64,000 nucleotides of DNA from NCBI RefSeq assembly GCF_008831285.2, contig NC_045147.1:3372001-3436000 (forward strand), written 5' to 3'. The notes beneath the pieces are model-generated. The model saw nothing but the letters and a program-made list of their open reading frames with translations. It was not told where the DNA came from and did not search any database. This document shows, piece after piece, positions 19,906 to 64,000 of this stretch (positions are counted from its first letter, which is position 1; each line of letters starts with the position of its first letter). The position numbers and the translations under genes were made by a program. The stretch comes from Nymphaea colorata (Eukaryota; Streptophyta; Magnoliopsida; Nymphaeales; Nymphaeaceae).

Positions 19906-19915
19906 GACATCCGTA

Positions 19916-20250: not shown

Positions 20251-21015
20251 AAATATTCACGGTCGATATCTTGGTCTGCCGTTGCGGGACTAAATGCCAA
20301 GTTGTGGGTCTCCCACTAATTTGGAGGATATCGATGTATCCAATATCTTCCACACGTATACGAAACGTGTAACTGTCTATCAGTTTCTCATATTTATTTT
20401 TGTTTTTATTTTATTTATGTCGTGGTTGGGCCATGTATACCATATATTGTAATTGTCAACATATTTAATTAAGTCATATATCTGATGTCTCAAACTATAC
20501 GTCAGTAGCGTTAGAGAAGAGGTTCGCTGGTGGCCAATAGGGTGTGAATTAGAAGATAGCAGTATGCTTTTAATTGTACTTCAGTTAGGTTTTAAATTCT
20601 TAGCAAACAAAGTTAAAGTCAAGTAATTAGATTAGCAAGAGTTACTCTTTTTTTACTAAATTATATTCTTCATGTGTAGATTTCCACTTAATCATATATA
20701 TATATAGATAATTCGGCCCTTTCTTGGCCGTCATGTCCCACTTCTAACTTAATTATTCAATTGGATTTAATTAGATTAGCTAGTTAATTTATGCAGTCTA
20801 ATTAAACTTCACTAGCTAGAACCCTCCAAGGGGTTCATGTAAAGCTAGCTGTTGGTTTATGTTGTGCTTCTAAGTTTTCTGTTTTCGTAAATTTATCCTG
20901 AGAGCATCTCTACATATGGCATAGTAGGGGCATTGTCAGAATTTCATCAGTTGGATTATTTTCTTTAATATTTTTTTGTCAATTAGAATTGGTTTATTTT
21001 TTCATCTCCTCTGCT
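20250..21015. other. Non-coding, no feature seen
   Basis: A/T-rich DNA with no ORF of note and no clear repeat partner in the window. Confidence 0.5.
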
Positions 21016-21019
21016 TCTG

Positions 21020-21265
21020 TTTTAGTTTATTGACTTAGTTTTTCTTGTATACAATCCCATGTCGAACCATTGGGTCCTCCATGAGTGGACACTCCTTTTA
21101 CCGCAAATGAGATGTCAGCTCTAACCATGGGCACTCCTTTTACAGCACATAAGATGTCAGCTCTAATGATATATATATATATTCTGCATAAGTTACGGTC
21201 ATTGAATCTCATTTCATAGTTTTCCAAAGGCTGGACAAGTAGCCACGAGAGTGTTGATAGGGTTT
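21020..21265 (-). pseudogene. Copia RT/RNase H relic
   Basis: Minus-strand frames give RADISFAVKGV and an imperfectly duplicated RADILCAVKGV. These resemble the RPDISFAVN-V block of plant Ty1/copia polyproteins, preceded by a LVATCPA-like piece. A related, longer relic is at 62,640-63,120. It is broken by stops. Confidence 0.6.
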
Positions 21266-21269
21266 GCAT

Positions 21270-22805: not shown

Positions 22806-22819
22806 AATCGTCAAAAACT

Positions 22820-29027: not shown

Positions 29028-29993
29028 TCAATCACCCTTGATGAACAAAGCAAATCGCTTGAGCAGCAACTTCGCCTTCTCGTCCTCTGGCCTGAACAGA
29101 TGGAAGACGTGTTCCTTCCCTTCCACCTCCGCCTCCCCCTTCCAACCGCTAGCAGTCAAGGCTTCAAAGAACCACCGGCCGCGGCCCCGCAGGAAGTCAT
29201 TTCCGGCGATGGAAACCAAGACGCGCCGGCACCCCAGCCCATTGAGGAACGGCGAGCCAACCGCTAGCGGATTCATAATGGGGTCGTCGACTCCAGGGCT
29301 GGCAGGGCACGCCAACTTCCATATCAACTCTACATGTGCTGCCGACTCAGGCAACTCGCCCTCCAGGAGAGTCGACGACGAGAAGTACGGATGGACCAGA
29401 AGGATCCCCTGGGTCTTCACCGGGTCTTCGATGGGCGGACCCGATCCATGAACTGCAGATGCGCCGCCGGCTCTCATGGCTACATGGTGGACGAGGTTGG
29501 CACCGGCGCTGTCGCCGGCGAGCACGATGCGGCCAAGGTCGGCATGATCGGCGACCCATGGCTCGGTGCCTGGTCCAGTCTGGCGCGCCACCCACTGGAA
29601 GGCGGCCCAGCAATCGTGGTGGCAAATTGGGGCGGGATGTTCCGGAGCTAGGCGGTACTCGACGGAGACTGCAACGGCCCCCGTCTCCGCGACGAGGGAG
29701 TTGAGGTAGTTGTGGAAGAGAGGAGAAAAGGCAGACCCCATGAAGAAGCCACCACCATGGAAGTAGATTAAGAGTGGGCGGCGGTGATGGTTGCCGGAAA
29801 GTGGGGGGAGGTAGAGGCGGGCGGAGAGGCCAGTCTCAGGGTCGATGAGGACGTCTTTGGAGGAGACGCCGGTGGTATGATGGTCGGTGGAGGGAGGGAC
29901 CCTCTGGTTGCCATTCAGCCTCTCTACCCGGCCGTCCTGATAGAGCCGAATGAATCCAGGGACTTCGCCTATCAACTCTGCGGAGGAATCCAT
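29028..29993 (-). CDS. Plant carboxylesterase (CXE / HIDH-like, alpha/beta hydrolase)
   Basis: An intronless 321-residue protein. The start chosen is the ATG at 29,993 (MDSSAE), because the paralogue at 38,244 starts at the same codon; a longer reading adds 17 unconserved residues. The oxyanion-hole motif HGGG is at residues 79-82, the nucleophile motif GDSAG at 160-164 (Ser162), the acid at Asp266 in GNDFLRGRG and the base at His295 in EHVFHLF. The RLAPEHPAP block is at 114-122. All catalytic residues are present and the length is normal for plant CXEs. The N-terminus (VPGFIRLYQDGRVERL, VPPSTD, TGVSSKDV) is typical of the group with AtCXE12/13 and 2-hydroxyisoflavanone dehydratases. It has no signal peptide, so it is probably cytosolic and hydrolyses small acyl esters; the natural substrate is unknown. 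It is a tandem paralogue of the broken gene at 37.3 kb. Confidence 0.93.
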   Translation of the reverse strand: MDSSAELIGEVPGFIRLYQDGRVERLNGNQRVPPSTDHHTTGVSSKDVLIDPETGLSARLYLPPLSGNHHRRPLLIYFHGGGFFMGSAFSPLFHNYLNSLVAETGAVAVSVEYRLAPEHPAPICHHDCWAAFQWVARQTGPGTEPWVADHADLGRIVLAGDSAGANLVHHVAMRAGGASAVHGSGPPIEDPVKTQGILLVHPYFSSSTLLEGELPESAAHVELIWKLACPASPGVDDPIMNPLAVGSPFLNGLGCRRVLVSIAGNDFLRGRGRWFFEALTASGWKGEAEVEGKEHVFHLFRPEDEKAKLLLKRFALFIKGD

Positions 29994-29999
29994 GCTCCA

Positions 30000-32860
30000 G
30001 AGAGAGTGCGTCGGTGCCGAGTGTGTAGCCTTTCTCCTTACCATAAATGGGTGTTTTGTTTTCAGTTTACTTACCTATCACCGTTTCATTTTTTCTAGGT
30101 GTTCATATGGGGATGCTTTTATTTATTGGGCCCAGCGGCCGCTGGCGTACCCAGTCGGATTCAGGCCAGGGCCCGGCCTGTTTTTTACCCTAGTGTCCAT
30201 GATTTAACTCTCTGTTCGGCCCCGACATCATAACGGGCTGGGTTGGGTTCAGGTTAACCTACTTGACCCATGGGGCCCGTTAGCTAGTTTTGAGTCTCCA
30301 CTTTTTAACTTTTTACCAAAGGCATTTGGGCTTTCAAGTTTTGACTTTTCCTTTTTTGTTTTTTTGTTGGAAAGAAAAGATCTTTGCGTGTTGAGCCATC
30401 GCCACCGTCGCCACACCACGAGTCCGCCACCGCCGCCGTCGACCTCCGGTCCACCACCGGAAGTGCTGGGGTTCGATTGTCAGTCGTCACCGAGTCTATT
30501 TCCCCTCCAGTGGTTCTAGTAGGAGGCTATTGATTTTCATCTTCACGGTGAGCAGGTATACAAGTGATCTCTTTTGATTTAGAATTATTAAAATTGATGG
30601 TTTAAATTCAGACGTTCCATTTGATTGGCTTTGTTCTTTTTCTTGATACATCAGATTTTTTTACTCTGGTTTTCTCACGCGTGTTATGCAACTCCTGAAA
30701 TATCACCAACTTGATTATTATGTTTATCTCCTCTTGTTTGCTACATTACATTCTCTTGATGGTAGCTGACATCATACACAGACACAACTCTTGTTCTATC
30801 TTGCCTAAATATGGCACAATTCTGTTTTTGGCTAACTATTAAAAGAATATGCTTAAGCGTCTATATTTTCCATCTCGAAATTGTAAAACAAATGATAGTG
30901 CGCGAGAGAGTTCTATCTCTGTTTATATTGCTTAGTCTAATTCAAATAGTTGTTGTTGTATCTCCCTGTTTGATCTTAGTTCTTGGGTGCATTTGGATGG
31001 AAAAAGAAGAGGGGGTCCAAACAACATTGGAAAACTTAGTGGAGAGTTCTCTGGTTATAAGAACGTGTATGCTTTTTACTTGACCTAGTTGCTTGCTCTC
31101 TCTCTCCACACTTACATGTATGATTGCAAACAAGCACTTGTTAATTTTTATTAACATTTCTTTTTCATGTTAAATTGCAAATGGACATTCAAGATTGTCG
31201 ACGGACTCTCAAGATGTCAAGATGTTTACTTTGATTTCCAAACTCTCTTTTTATGTTTATGGTTTTAGCAATTTTAGTTTCTGTTGTGATCTGGTAACTA
31301 ATGTTAGTCAAGAGTGATGGCTAATTGATCAATGATGATCATGATGGCGATACTGGCTTTAGATGTTTCTTGGTGGCTGCTAGTGCTACAGTTTGGTTGT
31401 ATAATTTTGAATGGTTGAAGTTGAATTTGCTTGTTGTGGCTGAAGTTGTTGAACTGCGACCATCATATTTCTTTTTTTAATGTTCTTTTGATACAGACCT
31501 CACTCTGTTGAGGAATGTTAGAGCAAATATTACATCCACTGATTTGATCAAGACTCCTCAAAAGTGAGGCTCAAATGAAATCTAAAAATGAAAAGGGAGG
31601 ACAAAGCGTGAGCCAAAGAGGTTCTTTCAAAAGACGTTCAACATTTAAAATTACATATGCACATGATGCACATGAGATTAAAAACAGTGCCCGGCCGGCC
31701 TGACCCAACCCGGCCCGTCCCGACCCAGCCCGGTCCTGCAGTTAAAAAACGGGTCGAGCAGGGCCGAAACTCGGATGTGGTTGAGTATGTCCAATACCCT
31801 GCCCGACCTGGCCCATTAATAGTCGGCAGGTAGCATGTCAACCTGATCCAACTTCAGGTCGTTAACAACGTTCACTAAACAGGTTGACCCGGCTCGACCT
31901 GGCCCAATGCTCAGGTCTATTGTATTGTAGTGTCCCACACTCTTGGCTAGTGTTTTAGGGGAGTGTTTGGTAATAGTAATTTATTGTTGATGTCGTCTCA
32001 ACATTTTACAAAAAAAAAAAAAATAGATTTTGAAATGTTTAATAATTGTTTCATAAATGCACTATAATTTTTAAGATAGATTCATAGATCATTAATGCTG
32101 CTAAACACCTCATAAAGAGCTTTTCTTTTTTGGCTTTGAGAATCATAGCATATACGAAAGTTTTAGTTATCAATTTAATTTACGCATATATCACTTCCTC
32201 TAACCTAATCTTGAAACTTCTTTACATATTTGACTACTTCACTGGCTCTTTGAAGCTTCGTCATATACATATTGGAAAGATTATTTTGAACTCAAAAACG
32301 TGAACTATTATAGGATGTGACGATGAACGTTATTTAAAATCTATAATTGGAATCTACGGATCTAATCTTAGTTCATGGAACCAAAGAAAAGAAAAATTCA
32401 GTGTCATTTGATCGTCGGGTCTTGGATCCTCGTGGGTTTCCATTTTCCTTTTTTAAATCAGGACGTGTGCGGCTAAATTTTTCAGATCAAATAGTTTGCT
32501 TTTGAACAGCTGAACAATTTTTTTTTTACAATTATTTTGACTTTCGTCCTTTTTCTGAACCCTGTCACGTCTTCTGTCAAATTTGGACGCTGACACATTA
32601 CTTCGACTGTTGGGACAATTGAATATAATTTTTTAAAAAAATTCAGTTTACATTATCGTGCATATTATATCAATTTATGTCTATACTCGTACTTAGGTTA
32701 ATAAAGGGTATTGCCATCTTCCTTATTAAATTTGACTACTTTCGAAATCTAACTTAAGCATACTTAAGTGGCCCGATGACAATAGTAAGACATCGTTCCG
32801 AGGCAAACTATCCTACATATAATCATGAATCGATAGCCAGTGTCTTTACAATTAAAATAT
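30000..32860. other. Intergenic, TE-like GC-rich patches
   Basis: No gene recognised. Patches at 30,130-30,290 and 31,690-31,910 carry GGGCCGGGTTGGGT-type words. ACGGGCTGGGTTGGGTTCAG (about 30,232) and the reverse complement of TGACCCAACCCGGCCCGT (about 31,700) are inverted to each other, which suggests subterminal repeats of a 1.5-1.8-kb hAT-like element, though the true ends could not be fixed. Between them 30,380-30,560 is CCACCGCCGCC-rich, resembling a plant 5' exon, with a GT-like donor after GGTGAGCAG. 32,290-32,600 matches 38,640-38,950, extending the carboxylesterase duplication. Confidence 0.45.
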
Positions 32861-36899: not shown

Positions 36900-37261
36900 T
36901 TCACAGCGCCCCTTTGTCAACATTTGATGCATACTACTAAATGTAACTTTTATTTAATTTCTTCTTTCTTTACGTCAACCACAAACAAACACAAAATTAA
37001 GCATACACTGAAGAAGATCACATCATTCACTTAGACACTTTGTCCTATATGTGGCATCCGTGAATCTGCAAAAAGATGTAAAGCAAAAAGGAAAAGAAAT
37101 TTTGTCGGATTCCGTCCAACTTATTGCCAATGTTCTGATTTTTTCTCCTTCTCTCGAAGACGACGATGGCAGACGTTTGGTTGGAAGTGAAGCTTTTGGC
37201 TTTTGGTACGAACAAAGGGAACCTGAAACTCATCAATCTATAATGGACGACCAGGATGGTA
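36900..37261. repeat. Carboxylesterase 3' flank shared with 28,740-29,027
   Basis: TTATTGCCAATGTTCTGATT, AATCTRTAATGGACGACYAG and other landmarks are shared in the same order, so the tandem duplication covers the 3' flank as well as the gene. Confidence 0.85.
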
Positions 37262-38244
37262 TCAACCACCGTTGATGAAAGAAGCAAATCGCTTGAGCAG
37301 CAACTTCGCCTTCTCATTCTCTGGCCTGAACAGATGAAAAACGTGTTCCTCCCCTTCCACGTCCTCCACCTCCGCCTCCCCCTTCCAACCGTTAGCAGTC
37401 AATGCTTCGTAGAGCCACCGGCCGCGGCACCGCAGGAAGTCCTTTCCGGCAATGGCTACCAAGACGCGCCGGCACCCCAGGCCAGAGAGGGACGGCGAGC
37501 CAACCGCTAGTGGATTCATAATGGGGTCGTCGACTCCAGGGCTCGCAGGGCACGCCAACTTCCATATCAACTCCACAAGTTCTGCCGACTCCGGCAACTC
37601 GCCGTCGAGGCGAGTTGACGACCAGAAGTACGGGTGGACCAGAATGATCCCGTGGATCTTCACCAGGTCTTCGATGGGCGGACCCGATCCATGAACTGCA
37701 GACGCGCCCCCGGCTCCCATGGCTACGTGGTGGACGAGGTTGGCACCCGCGCTGTCGCCGGCGAGGCGGCGAGCACAATGCGGCCGAGGTCGGCATGATC
37801 GGCGATCCACGGCTCCGTGCCTGGTCCAGTCTGACGCACCACCCACTGGAAGGCCGCCCACCAGTCGTGGTGGCAAGCGGGAACGGGATGCTCCGGAGCT
37901 AGGCGGTACTCGACGGAGACGGCGATGGCCCCCGACTCGGCGACAAGGGAGTTGACGTAGTTGTGGTAGAGAGGGGAAAAGGCAGACTCGATGAGGAAGC
38001 CACCACCATGGAAGTAGATTAACAGTGGGCGGCGGTGGTGGTTGCTGGAAAGTGGGGGGAGGTAGTGGCGGGCGGAGAGGCCAGTCTCAGGGTCGATGAG
38101 GAAGTCCTTGGAGGAGATGCCGGTAGGATGATGGTCGGTGGAGGGAGGGACCCTCTCGTTGCCGTTCAGCCTCTCTACCCAGCCGTCCTTATGGAGCCGA
38201 ATGAATCCAGGGACTTCGGCTATCAACTCTGCGGAGGAATCCAT
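37262..38244 (-). pseudogene. Second carboxylesterase, 8-bp frameshift
   Basis: A full-length paralogue of the gene at 29,028-29,993, read from MDSSAELIAE at 38,244 to FINGG at 37,262. The first frame runs to about residue 158, ending ADLGRIVLA, and carries HGGG. The second frame resumes at AGDSAGANLVHHV and keeps Ser, Asp (GKDFLRCRG) and His (EEHVFHLF). At about 37,761-37,774 the plus strand reads GCGAGGCGGCGAGCAC where the intact gene reads GCGAGCAC. The 8-bp insertion, a near-duplication of GGCGAG, shifts the frame just before the catalytic serine. Extra residues near the C-terminus (EVEDVEGEEH) are in frame. No splice sites would remove the insertion neatly. It is probably a young pseudogene; an assembly error is possible but unlikely for an 8-bp repeat slip. 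Confidence 0.88.
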
Positions 38245-38249
38245 GGTTG

Positions 38250-40331
38250 AGAGATGTGAGAGAGAGAATCTGTGTGTCTCCTGTGTGCCGGAGCCCTTCT
38301 CCTTGTAATCTTATTTGTAAATGGATGTTGTTTTCAGTTTCCTAACACTGCTTTATTTTTTATTATTTATTATCTTGTCGACATGTGGATGCTTTTATTT
38401 CAAGTGTCCCACACAGAGGATCTCTTGAAGTTTTTTTTTTTCTTTTCCAAAATAAGGTATCTGGTCAGTATATCATCGCTTCCTAACCAGAAAACAGCCT
38501 TTTATCTCAAAGTTAGAGAAGTAATCCGTGAATCTCCATACAAAGTAGTTATGATTGGTCGTATGGTTCTCCAACTGTCCAATTTTGAGCTCCCTCATAT
38601 ATATATTTGATGTATTAGTTGAACTCTAAAGCATGAGCTATTACAGGATGTGATGATGAACGTTATTTAAAATATATAATTGGAGGTCGTTCCTATGGAT
38701 CTAATCTTAGTTCATAGAACACTAGAATAGCTCAGATTCATGATGTAAAATCACCCTTCATATGCCCATTATATCTTGCAAAAAAAAAAAAATCAATAAC
38801 ATTTGATTGTCAGGCCTCGCATCCTTCTATGTTTCCATTTTCCTGTTTGAAATCAAGAATCACATGTGTACGGCTAAAATTTTCAGATCAAGTAGTTCGA
38901 TTTTAAGCAACTGGACAATTTTTTTACAATTATTTTGACTTTATGTCAAGTTCGGAGGCTGAGACATTACTTCGAAAGGCCCATGCCTGTTGGGACAATT
39001 ATCCATCCAATATAATTCTTTAAAATTTCAGTGTACATCATTGTGCACACTATATTTCAATTTGTGTCTAGACTCGTGCTTAAATTAAGAAAGGCTATTA
39101 CCATATCCTTAATAAATTTGACTGAATCTAACTTACTGATGAATAGGTCAAAAAAAAATTGGGCACATTAATGAAACAAGTGTTTTATGAATTTGTCGCA
39201 TTTTTATGGAAATTAACAATGTATTACTACCAAACCGTTTCTCAGTAATGTTTTGTATATCTCATATTTAATATTGAAGTTTATTTGAGATCATTGGGAA
39301 TCTTAGATATGGAGAGCTGATGTCAGACATTGTCCAACATCAAATCTATGGTTTTTGCGATGAGTGTCTTATATCCTCTTTCTTACTTGTTGGTTAGATA
39401 CGGTATTTGTTTATACTGTAGGTCTCATGTAAGAGGCATTTAATCTGGAAATCGGATTTAAGATTTGAGGCTACCAAACACAGGTCTGTCCAAAATAGAA
39501 GAAAGTGTGAAATGAACTTGAGAAACCGGAAAATAAATGGTCCAACTTACAAACTTTCTTAACATGGTAGATGAATTTCTTGAAGTATTTGAAAAATTGT
39601 GGATGACACAACTCGAGTAAACTAATTGGACGGCAACAATTATTTAAAAACCCCATGAAAGCAAAATTTTATCATACTCTTACGGGGTGGGGAACTGAAC
39701 TGAACCAATCGATCATCATGGAAGAATAACGAAAATGATAGCTCAAGTATTTCTAATGCATCTATGCATACAGATCCTTCTTTGTGTGTAGGAAATACAG
39801 GAGGAATATAGTAGAAAAGAGCAGTAATCATGAATTGTTCTATCGGGGGACACAGCAAATTAGTTAGACCTTTTGCAGAATGATAGGAGCATTCGATCGA
39901 GCATAAGTTGCTTGTAAGAAGAGGAAAATGATTTGAGAAGAACAATGAGCAAAAGAGTTCAGTTGTGTAGTTTCCCAATGATTTGAGACAAAAAGAGAAC
40001 AGTACATTACATCTTTCATATTCTTATCAAATCCCATCCTACTTGTGTCAAGGATTGCCAATTTCTTAACAGATTACAGTGCCCCAATATCGGATGTCTG
40101 CTTTACAAGATTGCAGAAACTGACTTAATTTCTCTTCTTTATTTGTCCTAGAGTGGAAATTTTTTTTAGGCACGAAGAAGCGAGCTGGCATAAAATAGTA
40201 TGGATCCTTTTTATTGTGAAAGGTTGATGCACGAGTTTCATTGTATGAGTCATCATGGTCCACAAGGATATTTTTATTATAAGCTCCAAACAGGAAAAAT
40301 AACTCAGCATGAAAGTGGTGAAGGACAATTA
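38250..40331. other. Intergenic; carboxylesterase 5' flank then nothing recognised
   Basis: 38,250-38,340 resembles the upstream flank of the intact carboxylesterase (GTTTTCAGTTT). 38,640-38,950 matches 32,290-32,600. 39,200-40,330 has short ORFs on both strands with no recognised motif. Confidence 0.45.
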
Positions 40332-49173: not shown

Positions 49174-49566
49174 TGTAAGAAATCAAAATGAAGAAATAAT
49201 TAAAGGGACAAAAATTTTTAAAGTGGTTCAGCCAATAGGCCTACGTCCACTAGTCTATCATTTCTTGCTTGCCTTCCTTTGGTGGAGAGGCTCATTTATA
49301 TAGAGGAGTTACATAAGGGGTCTCTAGTTCCCAAGAGACATGACTTTTCATCTTTCAACATACATGACTTTTCATCCCTCAAGAGACATGACTTTTCATC
49401 TCTCAAGAGACATGACTTTTCATCTCTCAAGAGACATGTCTTTTCATTTCCTAAGAGACATGACTTTTCATCTTCCAACAGACATGACTTTTCATCTCTC
49501 AAGAGATATGACTTTTCATCTCCCAAGTAATACACATTGAGAGCCTTCTTGGTGTTTCTGTTAACA
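49174..49566 (-). repeat. 3' LTR (element orientation)
   Basis: It runs TGTAAGAAATC ... TTCTGTTAACA on the plus strand. It contains eight 24-bp repeats (49,335-49,526) built on AGACATGACTTTTCATCTCT and a TTTATATAGAGG TATA-like word at about 49,292. It differs from its partner at about one position near 49,214 (AAAAATTTTT versus AAAATTTTTT). Confidence 0.95.
49335..49526. repeat. 24-bp coding minisatellite inside the LTR (8 copies)
   Basis: The cores TGACTTTTCAT at 49,340, 49,364, 49,388, 49,412, 49,436 (variant TGTCTTTTCAT), 49,460, 49,484 and 49,508 are exactly 24 bp apart. Because 24 is a multiple of three, all frames stay periodic and open: HDFSSLKR on the plus strand, DEKSCLLR on the minus. 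The same array is at 53,931-54,122 in the other LTR. Confidence 0.95.
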
Positions 49567-49580
49567 TCCCCCCGCAAGCT
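49567..49580 (-). other. Polypurine tract of the copia element
   Basis: On the element strand the sequence GCTTGCGGGGGGA lies immediately before the 3' LTR start TGTTAACA, the position and composition of a plus-strand priming polypurine tract. Confidence 0.75.
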
Positions 49581-52500
49581 CAATGCTCCAACAATGAGAT
49601 TGAGCTTGTTAATTATTTGATAATGGTGCTGCTTACTAAGTGGCTTAGTTAAAATATCAGCAACCTGATCTTTGGAAGAGATGTACTGAATTTTCAAATC
49701 TCCTTTAGCCAATTTTTCTCGAACAAAATGAAGGTCAATCTCTATGTGTTTGCTGCGACTATGATACACAGGATGAGCTGCAAGATAGGCTGCGCCGATG
49801 TTGTCGCACCATAATATGGGAGGTTGTGATTGATCAACACAAAGTTCTTTTAATAAAAATTGTAACCACATGATTTCAGCAGTAGTATTGGCAATGGATC
49901 GATACTCAGCCTCAGTGCTAGAACGAGAGACAACTGACTACTTTTAGCACTCCATGAAACTAGATTGGATCCAATAAACACTGCATATCCACCTGTAGAG
50001 CGTCTATCATCAAGACATCCTGCCCAATCTGCATCACTGTAAGCATTAATATTTAAAACTGAACTAGGTTTAATAACAAGGCCATAATCAATAGTGTGCT
50101 TTAAATATCTTAGGATTCTCTTTACGGCATCCCAATGGGCATCAGTAGGATGATGCATGTATTGACAAACTTTGTTGACAGCATAAGAGATGTCTGGACG
50201 AGTCACAGTAGAGTATTGAAGAGCGCCAACAATGCTGCGATAAAGAGTTGGATCATAAAAATTTGATCCAGTTTGAGCAGATAAAGCAGGGGAGCATGCC
50301 ATGAGAGTTGAAACTCCCTTAGTTCCAAGCATATTTGTTCTTTTGAGAAGCTCGAATATATACTTCCTTTGAGACAATATTAGCTTATTGTCAATTCTTT
50401 TTGCATCTATGCCCAAAAAAAAATGAAGCTCACCCAGATCTTTAATGGCGAACTCACTTTTGAATTGACAAATAATTTTATGAATATATTCTGGTGAGCT
50501 TCCTGTTATGATCATGTCATCCACGTATACCAAAACATATAGAAGTATTTCTCTTTTTCTCAAAATAAAAAGAGATGAATCTGTTTGAGCCCCTTTAAAA
50601 CCAAGATTTTGGAGGAATAGACTAAGACGGGCAAACCATGCCCTAGGAGCCTGTTTTAAACCATATAAAGCACGTTCAAGCTTGCATACATGATTTGGGA
50701 AAGAATGATTTTGAAATCCGGGTGGTTGAGCCGTATAAACTTCTTCTGAAATAGATCCATATAGGAATGCATTTTGAATATCCAACTGATGTATTTTCCA
50801 TTTGTGACTAATAGAAATAGTCAATACTGTCCGAATTGTAGTAGGCTTCACAACAGGGCTGAAGGTTTCAGTATAGTCAATTCCTTCTTTTTGACTATAT
50901 CCCTTGGCGACGAGTCTAGCCTTGTATCTTTCCAATGATCCATCTGCCTTTCGCTTGATTTTGAACACCCATTTACATCCTACAATGTATTTGGCTTCTT
51001 TCTTTGGAACAAGTTTCCAAGTATTGTTTCGAATAAGAGCATCATATTCTTCTTGCATGGCCTTCCTCCAATTTTCATCTTCATATGCTTCCTTGAAACT
51101 TGAGGGTTCTTTGTCTTCAAGAAGAGTGGAGACAAGAGCTCTTGGAAGAGAGTGTTTGCTAGAAAAATATGTATGGAACTCATTGTATTTAGAATTAGGT
51201 TTGAAGATTCCCACTTGAGATCTAATAGTCATAGGATGGACTCGTTCTTGATTTGGTTCATTTTCATTGGATTGGGTAGGCTCCTCATTTTCAAGAGTTT
51301 TAGGTTGAGATTCACTATTTGTTTCAGACTGAAGTAAGGGTTCCTCTGAAGTTGTGGAGGTACTAGATGATGGTATTGTAGGGTTTGATAACTGATATTC
51401 ATGAGGGGAGGTTAAAATTATAGCTTGGTTTTGAGTTTCTAGATCTTGAGTTCTAGTTTCTTGAGTATCAATAAAAGGAAATTTTTTCTCATTAAATTGG
51501 ACATGTCTCGAAATATAGATTTTACGGGTTCGTACACCCAAACAATAATATCCTTTATGTTGAGGAGCATAACCCAAGAAAACACATCTTTCAGAACGGT
51601 AATCTAATTTATTTTTCTGATAAGCTCTTAAACAAGGAAATCATTCACATCCAAAGATTTTGAGGAAGCCATAGTCAGGTTTCTCTTTGAACAATTTTTC
51701 CAAAGGAGAAGCAAAATCAAGAATCTTGGTTGGCATTCGGTTAATCAAATATACAGCAGTACAAAAAGCATATGACCAAAAGTTCTTAGGAATATTACCT
51801 TCTGCCATTAGAGATAAACCTGTTTCAACAATATGTTTATGTCTCCTTTCAGCTGCTCCATTTTGTTCAGGGGTATGAGGACATGATATTCTATGTCCAA
51901 TCCCATTATCGACAAGATATGATTGAAGCCCTTGAAATTCTCCTCCTCAATCTGAGTGAAAATATTTTATCTTGTGCCCAGTGAGATTTTCAGAAAGTGC
52001 CTTGAAAGCTTTAAAAACATGACTGACATCTGATTTTTTTTTCATCAAATAAATCCAAGTATATCTTGAAAACGCATCCATAAAAATCACATAGTACTTA
52101 AAACCATTCACACTCTCCACTGGGGCTGGACCCCATACATCAGAATAAATGAGTTCAAGCGGGCGGTTCACCTTACTTGAAATAGCATTAAATGGAAGTT
52201 TATGACTCTTAGCCTTTTGACAAGCTTCACACAAATAATTTAAACAATCATCATAATAAGACAAATCATACTTGTTCAAAACCTTCTTAACAATGGAAAA
52301 TGAAGGGTGACCAAGTCTTTTGTGCCACTGCCCAATAGTATGTCTTTCTCCAAGTTGTGCTTCCTTTTTTCTGCTACTAAGGTCAATCTTATATAGCCCA
52401 TCACTGCTCGTTCCTTGATGAAGAATTTTTCCCGTTCCCTGCTGCTTAACATAGCACATATTAGGATGAAACTCAAAATAGACTCCATTATCCTTAGAAA

Positions 52501-53758
52501 AACGTTCTACAGATAACAAGTTTCTTGTTATTTTGGGCACATGAAGGAGATAATTTAAAACTAAATTTTGAGATGTCTTTGAAGAACCAATATGAAAAAT
52601 TCTCAAACCTGATCCATCTCCGATTTTTACTGCATCTCCACCTTTGTATTTGGCATGAATGGACAAGTTATTGATATCATTGGTGATGTGATGAGTCGCA
52701 CCGAAGTCAGGATACCAATTGTCATCTCCAATGTCTTGATTCAGAGTGCTAGAAGAAACTGCATGATATGCTTGAGGAGGCGTTGTCTCTTTTTCTTTAA
52801 GCAAGTTAGTATATGACCAACAAAACTTTGCAATATGACCAACTTTTCCACATATTTGGCACACAAAACGATCACCTTTGTATTGATCACTTTTCCGGAC
52901 TCCTCCTCTAGATTGATAGTTGTTTCTACCACGACCTCTGTAGTTGGTTTGCTTGTTGTAAACTTGTTTTGAGGCAATATTCGCAACCGGCATAATAGAT
53001 TCAAAAGTTTGAGAATCATCTTCTTTTAAGTTGGCTTCTTGTATGAGAAGAAGCCCATGAAGTTCGTTCAAAGAGACAGGGTCCTTTCGAGTTTCCATAC
53101 TGACTTTAAAAGCAAGATATTCACTTGGCAATCCTCTAAGAATTTGAAGGACAAGATCATCTTCATCAACAGGTTTGGATGCAATGGCTAATTGATGAGC
53201 AATAAATTTTGCTTTGTTTATATAAACATCCATAGAACTAGACCCCTTTTTCAAATCTTGAAACTGTGATTTTAACTGCATTATTCGAGCCCTAGATTGA
53301 GTGGCATATGACTGCCTAAGAGCGCTCCAAACCTCAAAAGAGGTTTTTAAACCAATAATTTGGGTATGTATTGCTTCAGATAGAGAGGACTTAATCCAAC
53401 TCAAAAGTAGTTGATCATTTTTCAACCATTCAATATATTCTGAACTAATTTCAGTTGTTCCACTTCTAAACATTGATGGAGCAGGTTTGCTTCCATCAAT
53501 ATATCCCATAAGACCAAATGATATCAAAATTGAAGTGAATTGAGATTCCCAAATAAGATAATTTTCAGCATTTAACTTGATGGTGAGGAAATGCTGTAAA
53601 TTGCTTGGGCACTGAAGAGGAGAAGCAAGAAAATTCATACCCGTATCAGAGTTGACTCATGTATTTGATGATGCTTCTTGATTTGCCATGAGAATGAAAC
53701 GCGGCAACACAAGATGTAATCCTTAGGATCTAGCAGCAACACTAACAAGGACCAGTGT

Positions 53759-53769
53759 CTCTGATACCA
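53759..53769 (-). other. tRNA-iMet primer-binding site
   Basis: On the element strand TGGTATCAGAG directly follows the end of the 5' LTR (CTTACA), complementary to the 3' end of initiator methionine tRNA. Confidence 0.9.
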
Positions 53770-54162
53770 TGTAAGAAATCAAAATGAAGAAATAATTAAA
53801 GGGACAAAATTTTTTAAAGTGGTTCAGCCAATAGGCCTACGTCCACTAGTCTATCATTTCTTGCTTGCCTTCCTTTGGTGGAGAGGCTCATTTATATAGA
53901 GGAGTTACATAAGGGGTCTCTAGTTCCCAAGAGACATGACTTTTCATCTTTCAACATACATGACTTTTCATCCCTCAAGAGACATGACTTTTCATCTCTC
54001 AAGAGACATGACTTTTCATCTCTCAAGAGACATGTCTTTTCATTTCCTAAGAGACATGACTTTTCATCTTCCAACAGACATGACTTTTCATCTCTCAAGA
54101 GATATGACTTTTCATCTCCCAAGTAATACACATTGAGAGCCTTCTTGGTGTTTCTGTTAACA
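53770..54162 (-). repeat. 5' LTR (element orientation)
   Basis: 393 bp, same length as the other LTR and identical apart from about one base, with the same eight-copy 24-bp array at 53,931-54,122. Confidence 0.95.
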
Positions 54163-56139: not shown

Positions 56140-57960
56140 ACAACTTAGCTTTCAAACAAGCCCTATTTTGCTGGATTTGAGCACCAATTGCCATCCTAAG
56201 TTCCCCATTTTCAGAAACTTGTTGAGAAAGCCTTGCCAAACAATTGTAGGGGCATTTTAGGAATTTAATTAGTTACCTTATTTTTTTTAATATCTACCAA
56301 TTAGAATAGGTTTATTGTTATTATTTGTTTTTGTTGTAGTTTATTGACTTTTTTTTCTTGCTTTAACCACTTATTTTGCGCCTCTTCCAGGATTCATGAG
56401 TACATTGAAGACGTAAAGTGTGGATATTGGCAGAATAGTCAAAGCACTTCAGGGTATATTTATTTTGTGCATTGGATTGTCTTCCTTTTGTGAGTTCGCA
56501 TAACTTTTTTAGTTTCAGTAATAAAGGAAATTTATATCTTATCCATTTTTGTTTTGGATCATGATTCTCTGAGATCTTCTTATTTGTGAATCGAACCAGA
56601 CTTATCACCACTTTTTGTGTAGATCTGAAAATTTAATTGGCATGTTACTGAGACGCAATAGAAAATAGCATCACAAAAGGCCCAAGATGGGTTGCGCACA
56701 CCATAAGTAGCCATGTGGCATAACATAGCAAATCATATTTTGCATGAGAAAGCGAAAGACATCAACACTCATTGCCATTATGTGCAGAAGAAAGTCGAAG
56801 GAGATGGAGACCCCATTTGATAAAAACAAAATCATTTTTCAAATTCATTGACCGAAAGTTCGCCGACAGAAAAATTCAAAAAATATCAATTGCATGTAAT
56901 GGATGGTGTTGAAAGGCACAATTCAGATGAAGATAGATGAAACTTCTCATGCTTGTCTTTCAGGAAGTGTGGATGCGGTTCCGGATATCACCTAAATTTA
57001 TACAATATTTTTTTTATTTTTTCTGGCCAATCACTTGTTTCTCAGTGCCTTATTTTTTCGTCCTTTGTTTCTACCATAAAGGGCTTGCAATCTACCAAAT
57101 AAATGATAATCAGGCATGACACTATCGTAGTCGCCAATAAACCATCACAGGCATTGAGTAAGCCAGTATGAGGCTCAACATGTTCCCCATGGATGTTTCC
57201 CTTGGATAATATAGGTCAATATTGGGTTGAATAACATAAATGTGTTGTCTTTGTGTGCTCATGTGTGGCTTGAAACTCCCGATGCAAATTGTTGGGAGAG
57301 AGGACTCCCATAACCTGGGGGCAGAGGCAGTTGTGGGGCACCATGTGGACAACCTACAAAAAATTCTTATTTTTATATTGATACTTCACATAAATTTTAT
57401 TTATTTACATGTTGGTATTTCTTAAAACCCGACTAGGCTCAACTACATAATGGGTGTTAAATTATAATGAGAAAGTAGTTAAACAAGTAGCAACTGAACA
57501 AGTTAATGAGTTAAATGAATTAAGAGTTAAACAAAATGAGACTTGCTTAACATAAATGAGCTAAACGAGTCGATTAAGAGTTAAACAAAATGAGACTTGC
57601 TTAACATAAATGAGCTAAACGAGTCGAGTCCAAGGTTGACGTTGTATCCTCAAGTCAAGCTTCAGCTTGTTCTATCGAGCTCAAGTTTTCTGAGTCGAGC
57701 TCAAGCTGGCCCAACTTGAACTCGACTCGGCTGGTGTGCCGCCTTACTTCCTCCCAACTAGCAGTGCCATATATTACACTCTAAATGAATCGAGTATTAG
57801 TAAACTCTCAAATGAACACTTATTTCAGTGTAATTGCCAACTTCGTAATTCCAAATGTCCTCTTTGTGGATGGGATGAAAAATTAAGATATTTTAGTTAA
57901 CACTTGCTTCCTTAACAAAAGAGATTGATGGCTGGGATTTTTTTCCAACTTCTAAGAATG
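56140..57960. repeat. Duplicated block, partner 44,740-46,600
   Basis: See the partner block for shared landmarks. It includes a copia RNase H tail relic at about 56,725-56,945 (HIA ... EKAKDINTHCHY, VEGDGDPI). A 54-bp unit (TTAAGAGTTAAACAAAATGA ...) is tandemly doubled at 57,513-57,620. Confidence 0.9.
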
Positions 57961-58497
57961 ACTTTTATGGCTCCAGCCATTGCCCGTCAACCATTAAAAA
58001 AAATTGTTTTTATTTTCTTTCTTTACAAAAAAAATAGTGCATAGTTATCAAATAGACGTGATCTCACTTCTCTGTACAACCACCATGGTTCATTCTTCAC
58101 CTACATGAAACTTTAAAGCAAAGAAATATCATCAAGTAAATAGAGTACTTTATCAACAAGATTTCATCAAGTTTTTGAGAACAGTACAAAGAAATATTCA
58201 GTTTGATACTTTAGTCGCTTACAAAGCAAGCTCTAGATTCCAACCTAAACGTGATCTGTCTTTTAAACCTTTCTACAAATGGCGGCATATTAAAGCAGAT
58301 CACACTCTAATCGAGCTATCTGTCCTTTAGAAGGTTGTTTGAGGGCAGAAACAATATGTTACTGTTTCATATATTTTTTGCCTCAAAGGTTATGGTGCCT
58401 TAAAAATTGAAATAAATTCATTAAATGCTTTCACAAATATTTTGTGAATTTATCTCAATTTTTGCGGCACATACATGGCTTACCAAACAACTTTTAT
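57961..58497. other. Non-coding, end of duplicated unit
   Basis: Up to about 58,140 it matches 10,640-10,850. Beyond that no repeat partner or ORF was recognised. Confidence 0.45.
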
Positions 58498-58660
58498 GGG
58501 GTCCTTTGGCAGTAGAGACATTTTGTGAGTGTCTCATGAATTTATCCAAAAGATTGAGGCCAGTTTATCGAATGCTAAAACTATCGTTTTATGAACATGC
58601 TACAATATTTGGGGTAGATTCATGAGACACTTACAAAGTGTTGCTGCTGCCAAACTACCC
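58498..58660. mobile_element. 163-bp MITE with ~48-bp inverted ends
   Basis: Left GGGGTCCTTTGGCAGTAGAG and the reverse complement of the right end GGGTAGTTTGGCAGCAGCAA, then TGAGTGTCTCATGAATTTAT against TAAGTGTCTCATGAATCTAC, form a long near-perfect stem. The flanks are TTAT on both sides. The GGG...TTTGGC ends and a TTA-containing target duplication fit a Tourist/PIF-Harbinger MITE. Confidence 0.75.
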
Positions 58661-59261
58661 TTATAAGTATGGAGAAAGCAGAATTTGCTGCTTTTTTTCC
58701 AATGTTATAAAATTATTTATGAGCCGATAAGCGGTTGAATCGGCCTCTATCACTTAATACAGTCGAACAAGATGTGTCATTTTGGTTTTGTATAAGAAAC
58801 AAAAATTGATATCTATAACACTCACGATTAATATAAGAAGCTGAGTAATTAATGGGGTGTTAGACAAAATTTGTGGCGTCTTAATTAGCAGGATTTATGG
58901 GAGTGGCTTTAGAAGTGCGATCATCAAGGCAACTGTATATGGATCCAATTTTAGTCCCTTATTTTATCTATTTTAATTTATCTTATGGATATCCAAGCCA
59001 CTGAACTTTCAAATATATGGTGGTACAAGAGAAATGTGAAGGGGTCAAGTCCAAAGTTCACCATTAATTTATTTCCTGAGATTTTACATGGTTTTGCTAT
59101 AGTAAGGTTCGCTGGCTAGGGCTCTTTGGTCTCACTAAAAAAGTTAGTTAAAAAATACAAGTAACAGTTTTAAGTAGTTTAGAATGTAAAATATGATCCT
59201 TTCAAGGCACTTATATTGAAAATCCGTGCATCAGTCACCAAGTAATAGGTTGAAATCTTGT
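58661..59261. other. Non-coding upstream of the hevein locus
   Basis: A/T-rich, no ORF of interest and no partner recognised in the window. Confidence 0.5.
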
Positions 59262-59866
59262 TCTCAAGTTAACAAAATTTTTGTACTGGCCTCAAAAGCT
59301 TCTTGTTCTCAAACTGGGAATACTAAGGGGATCTCGCGACGGTTTTCAACGTCGATCGGGACTCAAGTCTCAACATTGATCGGGGGACTCAAGTCCCCCC
59401 GTGCTTCTTCCTTTCCTTCCTTCCCACCAGGAGCGGAGGGAAGGGGGCAGCAAGGGTCTTGGCCCCCGTCAGATTTTAAAAATTTTAAAATTTATATATA
59501 AATTTAAAAAAATATATTATAATATATATTTCAAATCACGTTTTACTGATGGTTTTGACCGTTGGCAGCCATAAACTTTTGAGTGGGTGTTTCGTGGAAA
59601 TTAGTAAAACCTTTATTAAGAAATGACAAGTAGTAGTCATCTTTTGTGGCGGCTAAGTCCAAAGATTCAAAAATAATTGTAGTCTTTTAAAGGTTTTACG
59701 TTATCCATGGATTGAAGACGACTTCAAGGGTCCAAAACCAAAGGCTAGCCACCAACATGTTGCCCTTAACTCCAAAATATAAATAGGTGAGCCAAGGTAG
59801 CATTACTCATGAGCATTTATCCCAATCATAAGCTCTAGCTAGAGAAAGTGAGATTATACATATCAG
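59262..59866 (+). promoter_or_regulatory. Promoter and leader of the hevein-like gene
   Basis: 59,262-59,790 is the single-copy counterpart of the 432-bp units at 11,149-12,444, with an extra G/C-rich insert at about 59,360-59,520. A TATA box TATAAATA lies at 59,778-59,785, 81 bp before the ATG, so transcription would start near 59,810 with a leader of about 55 nt (GCATTACTCATGAGCATTTA then AGCTCTAGCTAGAG). The leader contains an upstream ATG (CTCATGAGC, at about 59,808) that would be at or before the start site. Confidence 0.65.
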
Positions 59867-60097
59867 ATGGAAGGATGGAAGGGAAGAAGCGGCGTTGCAG
59901 CGGTGCCGCTTATGATCATGGTGTTACTTGTGCTGGTTGTAGGGGCAATGGTTATGCCTGTTGCAGAGGCTCAATGCCAGAACGGGCCTTGCTGCGGTGC
60001 ACTGGGTAACAACCAAGTGGACTGCAAAACGATAAATCCCAACTATTGCTGCAGCAAATTTGGTTACTGTGGCAGTGGCCCTGCGTATTGCGGGTGA
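59867..60097 (+). CDS. Hevein-like chitin-binding peptide precursor (8 Cys, 76 aa)
   Basis: A small secreted peptide. Residues 1-35 are a signal peptide with a basic N-terminus (KGR), a hydrophobic core (MIMVLLVLVVGAMVM) and an AEA cleavage site. The mature part is residues 36-76 (41 aa). Its C-terminal half CCSKFGYCGSGPAYCG is the chitin-binding core of the hevein/ChtBD1 family, with the conserved Ser, three aromatics (F65, Y67, Y74) and Gly-rich loop. The protein ends at YCG, as in short amaranth-type hevein peptides, without the C-terminal cysteine pair of classical hevein. Cysteines are at 37, 42, 43, 53, 61, 62, 68 and 75. The spacing C-x4-CC-x9-C-x7-CC-x5-C-x6-C differs from hevein's C-x8-C-x4-CC-x5-C-x6-C. 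It is likely secreted and chitin-binding, perhaps antifungal; this is inferred from the family. It is intronless, with no chitinase domain downstream. Confidence 0.85.
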   Translation: MEGWKGRSGVAAVPLMIMVLLVLVVGAMVMPVAEAQCQNGPCCGALGNNQVDCKTINPNYCCSKFGYCGSGPAYCG

Positions 60098-60530
60098 GCT
60101 TTTTAGCTCTAGTGTTATGCCATTGTCAGGCTTATAAGACGGTCTTATGGCTATGAATAAAGCAGCTAGCTAAGCTGGTGGTAAGGTCCGGGTCAGCTCC
60201 AGTACTCCTTAAATAAAGCAGTGTATGCACCGTCTTGTTTGATGATGTAATATCTATTTGTGGAATCTCATAATGACACGTTATATGTGTTTGTTGTGAT
60301 TGCATTGTGTCCTTCCATTGGCTTTAGAGAAATTTTAAAGCTAAATATGTGTCGTCTTTTATGGTTGCATGCAATTGGTCATCGATTCACGGATTTAAGA
60401 TCCAAGGTTGCATTAAAAGACGTGCTTTAGAAGACTAGGATCTTAGGAACGTGGATTAAAAAATGTTGATTTTTGATATCCTTGGGGTAATTTTTGATAT
60501 CCTTGAAAAGGGTTTTACTTCTCTAACAAC
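60098..60530 (+). other. 3' untranslated/flanking region of the hevein-like gene
   Basis: Contains GAATAAAGCAG at about 60,155 and TTAAATAAAGCAG at about 60,209, two candidate poly(A) signals. 60,095-60,290 matches 19,924-20,090 behind the disrupted paralogue. The part at about 60,250-60,410 is missing from that copy. No ORF. Confidence 0.65.
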
Positions 60531-60554
60531 TTAGCCACGAGATTGTCGATCGAA

Positions 60555-61330
60555 TTTTCTCTGTATGTTCTGATCATATATTTTCCTAATAGGGGAACTT
60601 CAATACCGAGAAATAATGAAAATCTATGGGATCTTTTCGAATAATCTCCCAGCCAAAGTTTTCAACAAGGCTACGTACATGATCATCTACATAAAGCATG
60701 ACAAAAAAAAAAGATTGTCTATTTTGAGAGGATAAAAAAGAGTTGTCTGATAGAGCTTTTAGAAAAGTTATGTGCCTCCAAGGAAATTGCTCAACCATGA
60801 ACACACGATTCTTTAAGTGCTTTCTTCATACCATACAGAGGCTTTCAAAGTTAGCAAACATGATTTTTGAGGATCGGATTACTCAAAATCAGGTTGTTGT
60901 TTCATGCAATAGTATCTTCAATGGTAACTTTAGTGAAAATATAGTAGTGACACCACGTATGCCTGCTTCCTGAGGATGTATAAGTAATCCCTGTACTAGC
61001 AGATTCTCTTTTTTAGCATCAGTGATTGCCCAATTTCTTGTAGTGACTTTACAATACGTATTATTTTCCATGAGACGGAAAGCATATCAAGATTGATCAC
61101 CATTATGTGAATGAGAAACTCCAAACTAATGAGGTAGATACCGCATTTGCTAAAAGCAAAATATTGACTAAAAGCTTCCCAAGGTAGAAATTAGTAAACA
61201 TCAATGGATGTATGGTTGTGATGGCATCACCACCTCACTTGGTGAGCGTTGAAAGATATGATTCCTTTGAAGGTTGATGAAATCTATCGTCCTTATCTTT
61301 TTGGATATGCAAGTGAAAATATAATAGTGG
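60555..61330. repeat. Duplicate of 21,279-22,030 with copia relics
   Basis: Sequence and order match (CTAATAGGGGAA, ACGTACATGATCATCTACAT, CACGTATGCCTGCTT). On the minus strand 60,804-60,586 has MLYVDDHVRS, a decayed RT YVDD motif, followed by DPIDFHYFSVLKF. On the plus strand at about 61,050-61,240 lies an RNase H tail (HHYVNEKLQTNEVDTAFAKS). It is dead retroelement DNA shared by both hevein loci. Confidence 0.8.
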
Positions 61331-62000
61331 CAACATGTTTCTCAAGTTTGATGTAATCTAATACTAATCGACATGAATTGAAAAGATTGCAACTAAAGCT
61401 TCTTGTTTCTCAAGTTCACAAAATTCGTTGCGGACGTCAATGGTACTTCATTCATGTTTAATGGAAAGCAAAACCTTTATGAGGAAAATCATAGGTTGTT
61501 TTGAAATCGTTAAGGGAAGGCTATGTCTGAATATTCAAAAAGAATTGTCGTATTTGAGCTTCACGTTATTCATGTGTGTCGTTGATTAAATGGTGCATAT
61601 GAACGTTAACCTTATACGTCAAAGATGCTTCCAGGGCTTAAAACCCACAGGCTAGCGATCATTGGCTATAATTTTCTATGTGATCAAGTTTGTAATTGTG
61701 TCGCTAGTTAATTTGCTAGTGGTTATATGATGTAAGCTGGAATGGCATCTGGTTTTTCATCTTTCCAATTTTTGCTTATAGTAGTTGTTTTGTAGTTTTA
61801 TTAGATCTTATTAGTGGTGCTTATTGTAGAAAACTATAATTGTTTGTCAGAGTTAGACAGTGTGCAGAAAATTGAGCTTCTTCTACATTCTCGAACTTTC
61901 TTCTGAACAAAAAAATTGCCTACTTTGCACACTCCATTGAGAAAATTCTTAGATTTTTGGACAAATTTGGTGTCATTTCCTTCCCTGACACATCTACTAT
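61331..62000. repeat. Duplicate of 23,757-24,370
   Basis: Shared landmarks are AAAAGATTGCAACTAAAGCT, GGGCTTAAAACCCACAGGCT and TCTACATTCTCGAACTTTCT. Relative to 21-25 kb, this copy jumps from the equivalent of 22,036 to 23,757, a 1.7-kb difference. No gene. Confidence 0.85.
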
Positions 62001-62640
62001 ATCGGGGGAAACTTTCAGAATTTTTGGACTTATTTTCATATGTGGTTTTCAAAAAAATTTCAAAAACTGGTTTCCATGGTTATCTATTTTCAGGTCTCTT
62101 TGAGAAAAGTTCATGTCTTAGGATTTAGGGGAAATTTTGAGTTCCATGAAAAGGCTATTCCTTCTCTAACAACTTAGCTTTCAGACAAGCCCTATTTTGG
62201 TGAATGTGGACATCATTTGCCCTTCTAAATTTTCTATTTCCTAAAACCTAGCCAGAGCTAGAGCATTTCTATACTATATATAATAGCGGCATTTTAGTAA
62301 TTTGTTTAGTTTATTTCTTTATTTTCTTTTGTCAATTACACTAGGTTCATTTTTTTTTTGTCTCTTAGTTGTAATTTGTTTCAATTTTAGATTTTGACTT
62401 ATTTTTCCTTGTTTTAGGTGCCTATTTTGGGACTCCTCAAGGATTCATAACTACATTGAAGATATAAATTGCAGATCTTGCTAGAGTCCTTGAGCAATTA
62501 GGAAAGATTTGTTTCTTGGACTGGATTGCTGTCTTTGTGTGACTGCAATATCTTTTGTTTGAGTAACAAAGAGTATTTTATTCATTTTTTATTTGGATCT
62601 AATCAGGCACATTACTGTCATGGAGATCAAGAATTTTAAG
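62001..62640. other. Non-coding, diverged relative of 44,750-45,200
   Basis: CTTAGCTTTCAGACAAGCCC and GTGACTGCAATATCTTTTGT phrases echo 44,770-45,160, so it belongs to the same old repeat, heavily diverged. No ORF of note. Confidence 0.5.
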
Positions 62641-63120
62641 TGCTATTTGATTTCCACTTGTACTTCATCAAAAACATCTTTTAAAAATACTTGACGACAA
62701 ATCTCACAGAAATTTGATCATCAAAAGTATCCTTGAGATAAGAAAGAGTTTTTTTAAGTAGTGTCCAACCACTGGGTCCTCTATGTATTGGCACACGCTA
62801 TTTACAGCAACTGCGATGTCATGTCTAACGATAGTAGCATATTGTAAGGCTCCAATAAATCTTCTATATGATATGGAGTCATTTAAACCAGTCTAATGCT
62901 TTTTTAAAGCTGGACATGAAGCCATGAGATAGAGATTGCCATTACATCTTTTGGACCTGCCCTCATTAGACATTTGATAATGTATTTTTTCTGTTATGAC
63001 CAAATATTTTTCTAATAAGACGACTTCAAAACCAAGAAAATAATGAAATTATGGTAGATCTTTGACAGAAATCTCCATGCTGATTGAAGTTTTCAAATGG
63101 ACAGTTGACAGAAAAACGGC
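62640..63120 (-). pseudogene. Copia reverse transcriptase / RNase H relic
   Basis: From high to low coordinate, minus frames give a decayed RT end, then MRAGPKDVMA, MASCPALKKH, SYRRFIGALQYATIVRHDIA, VAVNSVCQYIEDPV and, after a shift, SYLKDTFDDQ. This is the YRS-VGALQYAT-TRPDI-FAVN-VCQ-M block of Ty1/copia pol. Stops and frameshifts are numerous. A shorter relative is at 21,020-21,265. The 5' gag and integrase parts are not present. Confidence 0.85.
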
Positions 63121-63189
63121 GAAATGAAGGTGTGAACTAACAAGGCAACATACATAATCCAAACTTGATTTGAGTTGATAGCACTACCA

Positions 63190-63780
63190 ATATGAGAGAA
63201 GATGGTCCCAATTGTGGCCTATTGGGAAACAGATTGGGCCTTTTAAGTTCTTTGCTCCATCCTTAAACTTTGTGCAACCAGTATTTCTTGTATAGCTATT
63301 CTCAACTATATTCAAAAGATCTTGTGACAAAAAAAAAAAAACTCATTTTGTGCTTCCGGATTCATAATTGTATCCATTAAAAATAGGCACCAATGCTTGG
63401 AAAAGGTCAAAATTATCTCAGGAATTTGTCAAATGGTTTAGTTATGCATAGAAATGTTTAACTTGCACACTTAATTCTTCAGCCTTCACAAACAATCACC
63501 ACCTTACACAACAATGCTCAGGTTCAATCAAAACCTAAGCTCTGAAACCACCATTAGCAACAGAAAACAAACAGCAGCCAACTTGCAAGTCTAAGATGAA
63601 GTCTCCTGCCATTCCTCTTCTTGTTTAGGCAAATTACAAATAGAAGTGGAAAACATAATAGAAAAAACATGAAAGATACAAATGGGTAACACAAAAAATC
63701 AAATGGAGGATAGAGTTTACGGCACAAACACTTTCAATTCTGATATATTTTGGTAGAGTAGGAGGAGTGTTTCAATATTC
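63190..63780. repeat. Third copy of the 24,370-24,930 / 34,380-34,900 block
   Basis: Shared landmarks are AAGTTCTTGCTCCATCCTT-like sequence, TTTGTCAAATGGTTTA, ACAATCACCACCTTACACAA and TCTAAGATGRAGTCTC. No coding content. Confidence 0.85.
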
Positions 63781-64000
63781 CACCGCTCAGCAAAAGACCG
63801 ACGTCCACCCTTCTCCCCCATCCCTCACAGTTTTAGCCATACTTTTTAGTATCTGAGGTGCTGCCTTTGATATGCTTAACTTGCACATCAATGGCCTTAC
63901 ACGGAGGTTGACCCTCTGTATATTCGAACTGGGGACTGAGTACGCATCTACCTGCCCCTGACTCAAGCTATTGCATCAACCTCTTGGAGTTATGAGTGCT
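63781..64000. other. End of window, nothing recognised
   Basis: 220 bp, slightly more G/C-rich, with no ORF or repeat partner identified in the window. Confidence 0.5.

Follow-up and report, generated by a model that had tools for sequence, protein, structure and literature searches.

The 64-kb stretch of Nymphaea colorata DNA analyzed here (the window) contains a gene whose product is, on balance, probably a secreted and cargo-free hevein-like chitin-binding peptide that keeps a complete hevein core and has its fourth disulfide moved to the N-terminal segment. The eight-cysteine plan of this peptide appears to mark a genuinely new type of plant defence peptide and not a sequence oddity; it is not an isolated case, because 14 intact genes of the same plan are present in one genome.

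The gene and its predicted product

The open reading frame at 59867-60097 of the forward strand encodes 76 amino acids, a hydrophobic signal peptide followed by a 41-residue peptide (sequence QCQNGPCCGALGNNQVDCKTINPNYCCSKFGYCGSGPAYCG). Its cysteines (C37, C42, C43, C53, C61, C62, C68, C75) are spaced C-x4-CC-x9-C-x7-CC-x5-C-x6-C, and one glycine and the stop codon follow. Both the reading frame and its non-canonical eight-cysteine spacing are present exactly as the original prediction had described them, and a six-frame scan of the window found the full pattern once, at this very position. A TATA box (TATAAATA, 59778-59785, forward strand) is located 89 nt upstream of the ATG, with TATAAA beginning at 59778, and a TATA-like motif is found at an equal distance from the ATG in the other six copies of the gene on the same contig (C10). 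Residues 1-35 (59867-59971, forward strand) form the predicted signal peptide, as judged from hydropathy; the -3/-1 rule, applied by eye, places the likely cleavage site after AEA|Q. Cleavage there would release the mature peptide QCQNGPCC...YCG with all eight cysteines (59972-60094, forward strand). With pyroglutamate and four disulfides, its monoisotopic mass is predicted to be 4211.59. No match to Rfam at the gathering scores and no ARAGORN match was obtained in the window.

The TGA stop (60095-60097, forward strand) is positioned one residue past CysVI, and the frame thus ends with neither a C-terminal tail nor a propeptide or cargo. Poly(A) signals of the AATAAA type follow on the same strand at 60156-60161 and 60212-60217, 58 and 114 nt past the stop. 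A cargo domain behind the peptide (chitinase, barwin) was sought in a Pfam scan of positions 60098-64000, in which the three forward frames gave no match at E ≤ 1. The reading frame might alternatively represent exon 1 of a longer protein, either a chitinase or a tailed hevein, with the stop codon overlapping a splice donor (GG|GTGAGC). A donor-like GTGAGC does overlap the stop, and six of the 168 downstream AG sites would add a C-x3/4-C within range; yet the two poly(A) signals, the lack of any domain in the forward frames as far as position 64000, and a stop one residue after CysVI in every one of the 14 intact genes speak against a continuation of the frame, and make it highly improbable. 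Excerpts from a review describe hevein-like peptide precursors as three-domain proteins (PMC4695807), composed of a signal peptide, a mature domain and a C-terminal region. The latter region is absent from all 14 intact genes, and a precursor without it is unusual in comparison with the three-domain type described.

The hevein core and the predicted chitin-binding site

The Pfam family Chitin_bind_1 (PF00187) matches residues 43-76 of the window peptide along profile positions 2-31 (E = 1.3e-6) with 29 bits, above the curated cut-off of 27.8 bits. Together with the hydrophobic N-terminus ending in AEA, this match bears out the proposal that the gene encodes a hevein-like peptide with a signal peptide. 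The Pfam alignment treats C43 as CysI; hence, C43, C53, C61, C62, C68 and C75 constitute the six-cysteine core (59993-60094 on the forward strand, including the final glycine), and C37 and C42 are left over. These six residues satisfy the motif CXnCXnCCXnCXnC, which is given as the cysteine motif of hevein-like peptides in the text available from PMC9127739. The same source, in the part available, formulates the chitin-binding site as SX(phi)G(phi) in loop 3 plus GXXXX(phi) in loop 4, and both elements are present in the window peptide as S63-K-F-G-Y67 and G69-SGPA-Y74. For comparison, the corresponding residues of ginkgotide gB5 are S19, F21, Y23 and Y30, according to an excerpt of PMC5093130.

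Chitin_bind_1 also matches all nine distinct mature sequences of the family at E ≤ 0.01, eight of them derived from intact genes and one (L039) from a copy without a signal peptide. When six diverged members were scanned singly, five of them gave a Pfam match that began with the third cysteine. Three scored above the cut-off (29.7, 30.7 and 28.1 bits), two just below it (27.2 and 27.5 bits), and one, L037, well below it (21.3 bits), its match covering the C-terminal half from near the fifth cysteine. The limitation of the L037 match to this half, and the non-standard order of eight cysteines with two vicinal pairs, are what one might cite for a new fold that is unrelated to hevein and whose C-terminal half simply mimics the chitin-binding motif. 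Against such a fold stand the hevein-domain match in nine of nine distinct mature sequences and its start at CysI, both in the window peptide and in five of the six diverged members, and we regard it as extremely improbable. The original prediction had left the choice between an extra disulfide on a six-cysteine core and a new fold; with a Pfam core that runs from CysI through residues 43-76, the former fits better.

Within this core, the cystine knot, with the I-IV, II-V, III-VI pairing typical of hevein-like peptides, would consist of the pairs C43-C62, C53-C68 and C61-C75, while the fourth disulfide would join C37 to C42 in an N-terminal CxxGPC segment that abuts CysI. The signal peptide would direct the product to the apoplast, where S63, F65, Y67 and Y74 may bind the GlcNAc units of chitin from fungi (or arthropods) and thereby impede the growth of hyphae, with the N-terminal loop acting as a brace of the fold. 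Hevein-like peptides bind chitin and hinder fungal growth, as stated in the available parts of reviews including PMC4695807; by analogy with these known peptides, chitin binding and hindrance of fungal growth in the apoplast should be expected of the N. colorata peptide as well.

A gene family in the N. colorata genome

The genome assembly searched has a total length of 408 Mb, divided among 783 contigs; the five that were met in the searches are 24.9 to 36.3 Mb in length, so that the assembly is near chromosome scale. A Pfam-family search gave 12 matches and a protein search 22. Fourteen of the 22 protein-search matches are intact genes, possessing both a signal peptide and a stop codon, and they reside on three contigs: seven on contig C10, one on contig C5 and two groups of three on contig C8. 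The seven on contig C10, among them the window gene, are near-identical (any two of them differ at 0 to 9 nucleotides) and are located at 3.35-3.62 Mb; the single gene on contig C5 is found at 1.68 Mb, and the two groups on contig C8 occupy 19.24-19.27 Mb and 13.874-13.880 Mb. Left out of the intact count were the window pseudogene (3387107) with its signal-peptide pieces (3384518 and 3384709), a mature part without a signal peptide (C10:3325002), a fragment (C8:13869944), a match confined to a signal peptide (C8:19225093), and two chitinases on contig C2. The copy at C10:3325002 (L039:315-437) contains the mature eight-cysteine region and has no in-frame signal peptide upstream; it is probably a truncated copy. 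The Pfam-family search recovered eight of the 14 intact genes, so some members match the general model weakly; a further search of the genome, this time using a diverged member as the query, returned 18 matches, none of them to an additional copy. The search was also extended to viral contigs and to genome contigs of prokaryotes, where no relative was confirmed.

All 14 intact genes encode eight cysteines and place the stop one residue after the last of them, and the exact spacing of the window peptide recurs in 12 of the 14; a family sharing the spacing, of the kind the proposed subfamily called for, is therefore present in this genome. One of the two exceptions has C-x5-CC; in the other (L037:154-276, C8:13874106), the loop that joins the third cysteine to the fourth has 5 residues and not 9, with all eight cysteines retained. 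Loop 1 likewise differs in length between families of hevein-type domains. When the nine distinct mature sequences (eight encoded by intact genes, and L039) are aligned, 14 columns are invariant, and these include every one of the eight cysteines; for a random placement of the invariant columns, the probability of this outcome would be 3e-5. Moreover, dN is smaller than dS in 21 of 21 pairs, with ratios of about 0.05-0.59; these pairs were formed from seven of the nine sequences, with L039 included and with L037 and L032:4239-4376 set aside on account of their length. Judged from these sequence comparisons, the conservation pattern has the look of a working family under purifying selection.

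A broken copy within the window

Parts of the gene region are duplicated in pieces within the window, where positions 10079-24910 correspond to 57062-63755; this second copy goes unmentioned in the original prediction. In the left copy, the promoter region is present in three tandem copies with a 432-bp period (11149-12447), and the gene itself is a pseudogene on the forward strand. Its signal-peptide half is located at 12709-12789, with a further partial copy at 12518-12598. An insertion of 2322 bp (12786-15107), which contains a protein-kinase fragment and shows by eye a short TTGTAG repeat at both borders, separates this half from the mature half at 15107-15265. The latter has undergone the replacements C37R and C43Y, so that six of the eight cysteines are left, C42 being one of them, and it scores 23.4 bits with Pfam, below the cut-off. 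A second insertion, of 4645 bp (15267-19911), is situated at the final codons of the pseudogene, and the 3' untranslated region follows at 19912-20088 on the forward strand. By eye, the 4645-bp insertion is bordered by an 8-bp near-repeat (ATTGTGGG/ATTGCGGG) and has the ends TAGGGATGTGAATGG and TACGGATGTCAACGG (reverse complement); a scripted comparison of the ends gave a weak match that differs from the ends recognized by eye. This insertion is probably a transposon of the hAT-like class, and the short repeats bordering both insertions resemble target-site duplications. For the pseudogene, dN is 0.096 and dS 0.278 (Fisher p = 0.08, with rounded counts), and the clustering of changes has p = 0.11.

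The broken copy has a bearing on which residues form the fourth disulfide. The same peptide, in the same role, might use C42 as CysI and form its extra disulfide between C37 and C43, across the vicinal pair; the broken copy has lost exactly these two cysteines and has kept C42 along with the other five. If meaningful, this loss would favour the C37-C43 pairing; since the pseudogene is interrupted by two insertions, it may be a matter of chance in a dead copy. Furthermore, Pfam identifies CysI with C43 and with the third cysteine in five of the six diverged members, and a glycine follows the third cysteine in 13 of the 14 intact genes, as it does in hevein domains. We therefore consider pairing of C37 with C43 unlikely. 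Between the two partners that had been proposed for C37, C42 is favoured, since the C37-C42 pair is like one type of hevein tail, and C43 is kept as a rival.

Other parts of the window carry further features. A Copia-type LTR retrotransposon with matches to reverse transcriptase, gag and integrase occupies 49174-54162 on the reverse strand; it is flanked by 393-bp repeats that contain a 24-bp tandem array and are 99.7% identical, so that its insertion is recent. Two carboxylesterase-like genes (Abhydrolase_3) at 29031-30074 and 37045-38310 of the reverse strand are about 89% identical over 1 kb, and the frame of the second appears to be split.

The N-terminal segment as a possible relocated hevein tail

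The segment C37-QNGP-C42 (59975-59992, forward strand) is like the C-terminal tail of x4-type hevein domains (CysVII-x4-CysVIII). In sequence, the C37/C42 pair resembles the tail with which some hevein domains end, a tail that is absent at the C-terminus here. Phmmer aligns the N-terminal CQNGPC with the domain junctions CQNGAC and CQGGPC of wheat agglutinin and with the junctions CQSGGCC and CQSGACC of an Arundo lectin. In the aligned sequence of the Arundo donax lectin (6stm), two domain junctions carry an extra cysteine directly after the tail (CQSGGCC, CQSGACC).

Phmmer bit scores were compared for the native order, the core alone, the core with the tail rotated to the C-terminus, and the rotated form with a shuffled tail, a single shuffled tail being used. 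Stated in that order, the scores rose upon rotation for avenatide aV1 (19.2, 19.3, 24.2 and 18.1), wheat agglutinin 3 (2x52; 40.3, 50.5, 61.9 and 44.2) and the Arundo lectin (42.8, 43.9, 55.2 and 39.6). Rotation gave no gain over the core for hevein (1hev; 18.1, 18.7, 17.4 and 19.2), lectin-C (1ulk; 24.4, 26.9, 25.5 and 26.7) and chenotide (5zv6; 25.9, 27.6, 26.4 and 26.9), and for the class I chitinase 4mpi the score dropped from 15.8 for the core to 13.8 for the rotated form. The gain in the phmmer comparison is hence confined to the grass lectins and avenatide. Against the wheat and Arundo tails, the probability that four random residues between the cysteines reach the score of QNGP is 5e-6 under general amino-acid frequencies, and 3e-4 when they are drawn from the residues of the peptide itself. 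Six family members were also compared locally with seven canonical domains (three from wheat agglutinin, four from this genome; 1000 draws each): the rotated tails of five members performed better than random tails (P from 0.000 to 0.012), and that of the member with CQTAKPC was not clearly better than random tails (P = 0.153). This local test was chosen post hoc, after the motif had been seen, the members are related to each other, and the reference set is small; the reading of the segment as a tail is therefore supported by it and not proven.

Hevein domains with a tail also occur among the chitinases of the same genome. In the two chitinases on contig C2 (GH19 plus Chitin_bind_1), the hevein domain ends with CRGGPC, and from the look of this short hevein domain we assume that they belong to class IV. 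A chitinase gene start on contig C9 (C9:23700055-23700303; L001:1339-2142) has two tandem hevein domains before the GH19 match, an arrangement presumably like that of nettle-agglutinin precursors, and these domains end with CQSQC. None of the 12 Pfam-family matches in the genome was a multi-domain hevein lectin lacking a chitinase. As far as the sequences go, placing the segment at the C-terminus increases the similarity to the grass lectins and to class IV-type domains, and not that to hevein.

The N-terminal pair could also be an independent addition to a six-cysteine peptide of the amaranth or chenotide type, with its likeness to hevein tails a coincidence. Amaranth peptides and chenotide cQ2 do match the C-terminal half, they have six cysteines and end soon after CysVI in the partial sources at hand, and comparison with hevein, chenotide and the class I chitinase shows no tail likeness; on the other hand, the likeness of CxxGPC to x4-type tails beats random tails in five of six members, and the segment matches the tail of the class IV-type chitinases of the same genome. 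We hold an independent origin of the pair to be somewhat unlikely. A relocated tail may instead derive from the hevein domain that preceded the core in a tandem or chitinase ancestor. We tentatively suggest, at less than even chances, that this came about by a natural circular permutation, in which the CysVII-CysVIII tail of the preceding domain became fused to the next CysI and the core's own tail was lost, founding a family of at least 14 genes for out-of-phase heveins whose fourth disulfide would brace the fold at its opposite end.

Comparison with known hevein-like peptides

The 8C hevein-like peptides (hevein, ginkgotides, vaccatides, morintides, avenatides) likewise possess a signal peptide, eight cysteines, a C-C-CC-C-C core and chitin-site residues of the same kind, and some of them are also cargo-free. 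Their order, as given in an excerpt of PMC5093130, is C-C-CC-C-C-C-C, with the fourth disulfide in the C-terminal tail; the order here is C-CC-C-CC-C-C, the additional pair being N-terminal, and a tail behind CysVI is absent from all 14 intact genes, which stop one residue past this cysteine. Loop 2 spans seven residues in the window peptide, in contrast to four in hevein. The 6C peptides (amaranth AMPs, chenotides) also end just after CysVI and match the C-terminal half well, whereas the window peptide has an additional N-terminal pair, a precursor without a C-terminal region and, as in all intact genes of its family, eight cysteines instead of six. An extra disulfide on the hevein core is likewise found in the 10C peptides (EAFP, WAMP, Ee-CBP); according to partial sources, these retain the 8C arrangement and have a fifth disulfide on top of it, while in the window peptide the tail pair itself is seemingly relocated and the number of disulfides is at most four. 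The junctions of the tandem lectins wheat germ agglutinin (CQNGAC, CQGGPC) and Arundo donax lectin (CQSGGCC, CQSGACC) are much like CQNGPCC, yet these lectins are multi-domain proteins, and the window peptide consists of one core behind a tail-like segment.

Text searches of partial literature for strings of the peptide or for its cysteine order returned, among the matches listed, no peptide of this order from a plant. The search with peptide strings led, in the passages returned, to Stellaria SmAMP2, which is canonical, and to work on chenotides; the search with the cysteine order led to cone snail, spider and mussel peptides among the matches listed. The cycad peptide Cy-AMP1 is a possible precedent: it has 44 amino acids and is called hevein-like in an excerpt of PMC7662308. 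The cysteine order therefore appears to be new among the plant hevein-like peptides in the partial literature searched, with Cy-AMP1 compared by description only, and the suggestion of an undescribed subfamily stands to that extent.

In the portions of the literature at hand, hevein-like peptides are sorted by the number and order of their cysteines, and their fourth disulfide is described as C-terminal. If the fourth disulfide of the N. colorata family is truly N-terminal, the hevein scaffold would tolerate the moving of its brace, and the family would offer a case of how single-domain peptides might arise from tandem lectin or chitinase genes. It would also provide a new scaffold for stable chitin-binding peptides.
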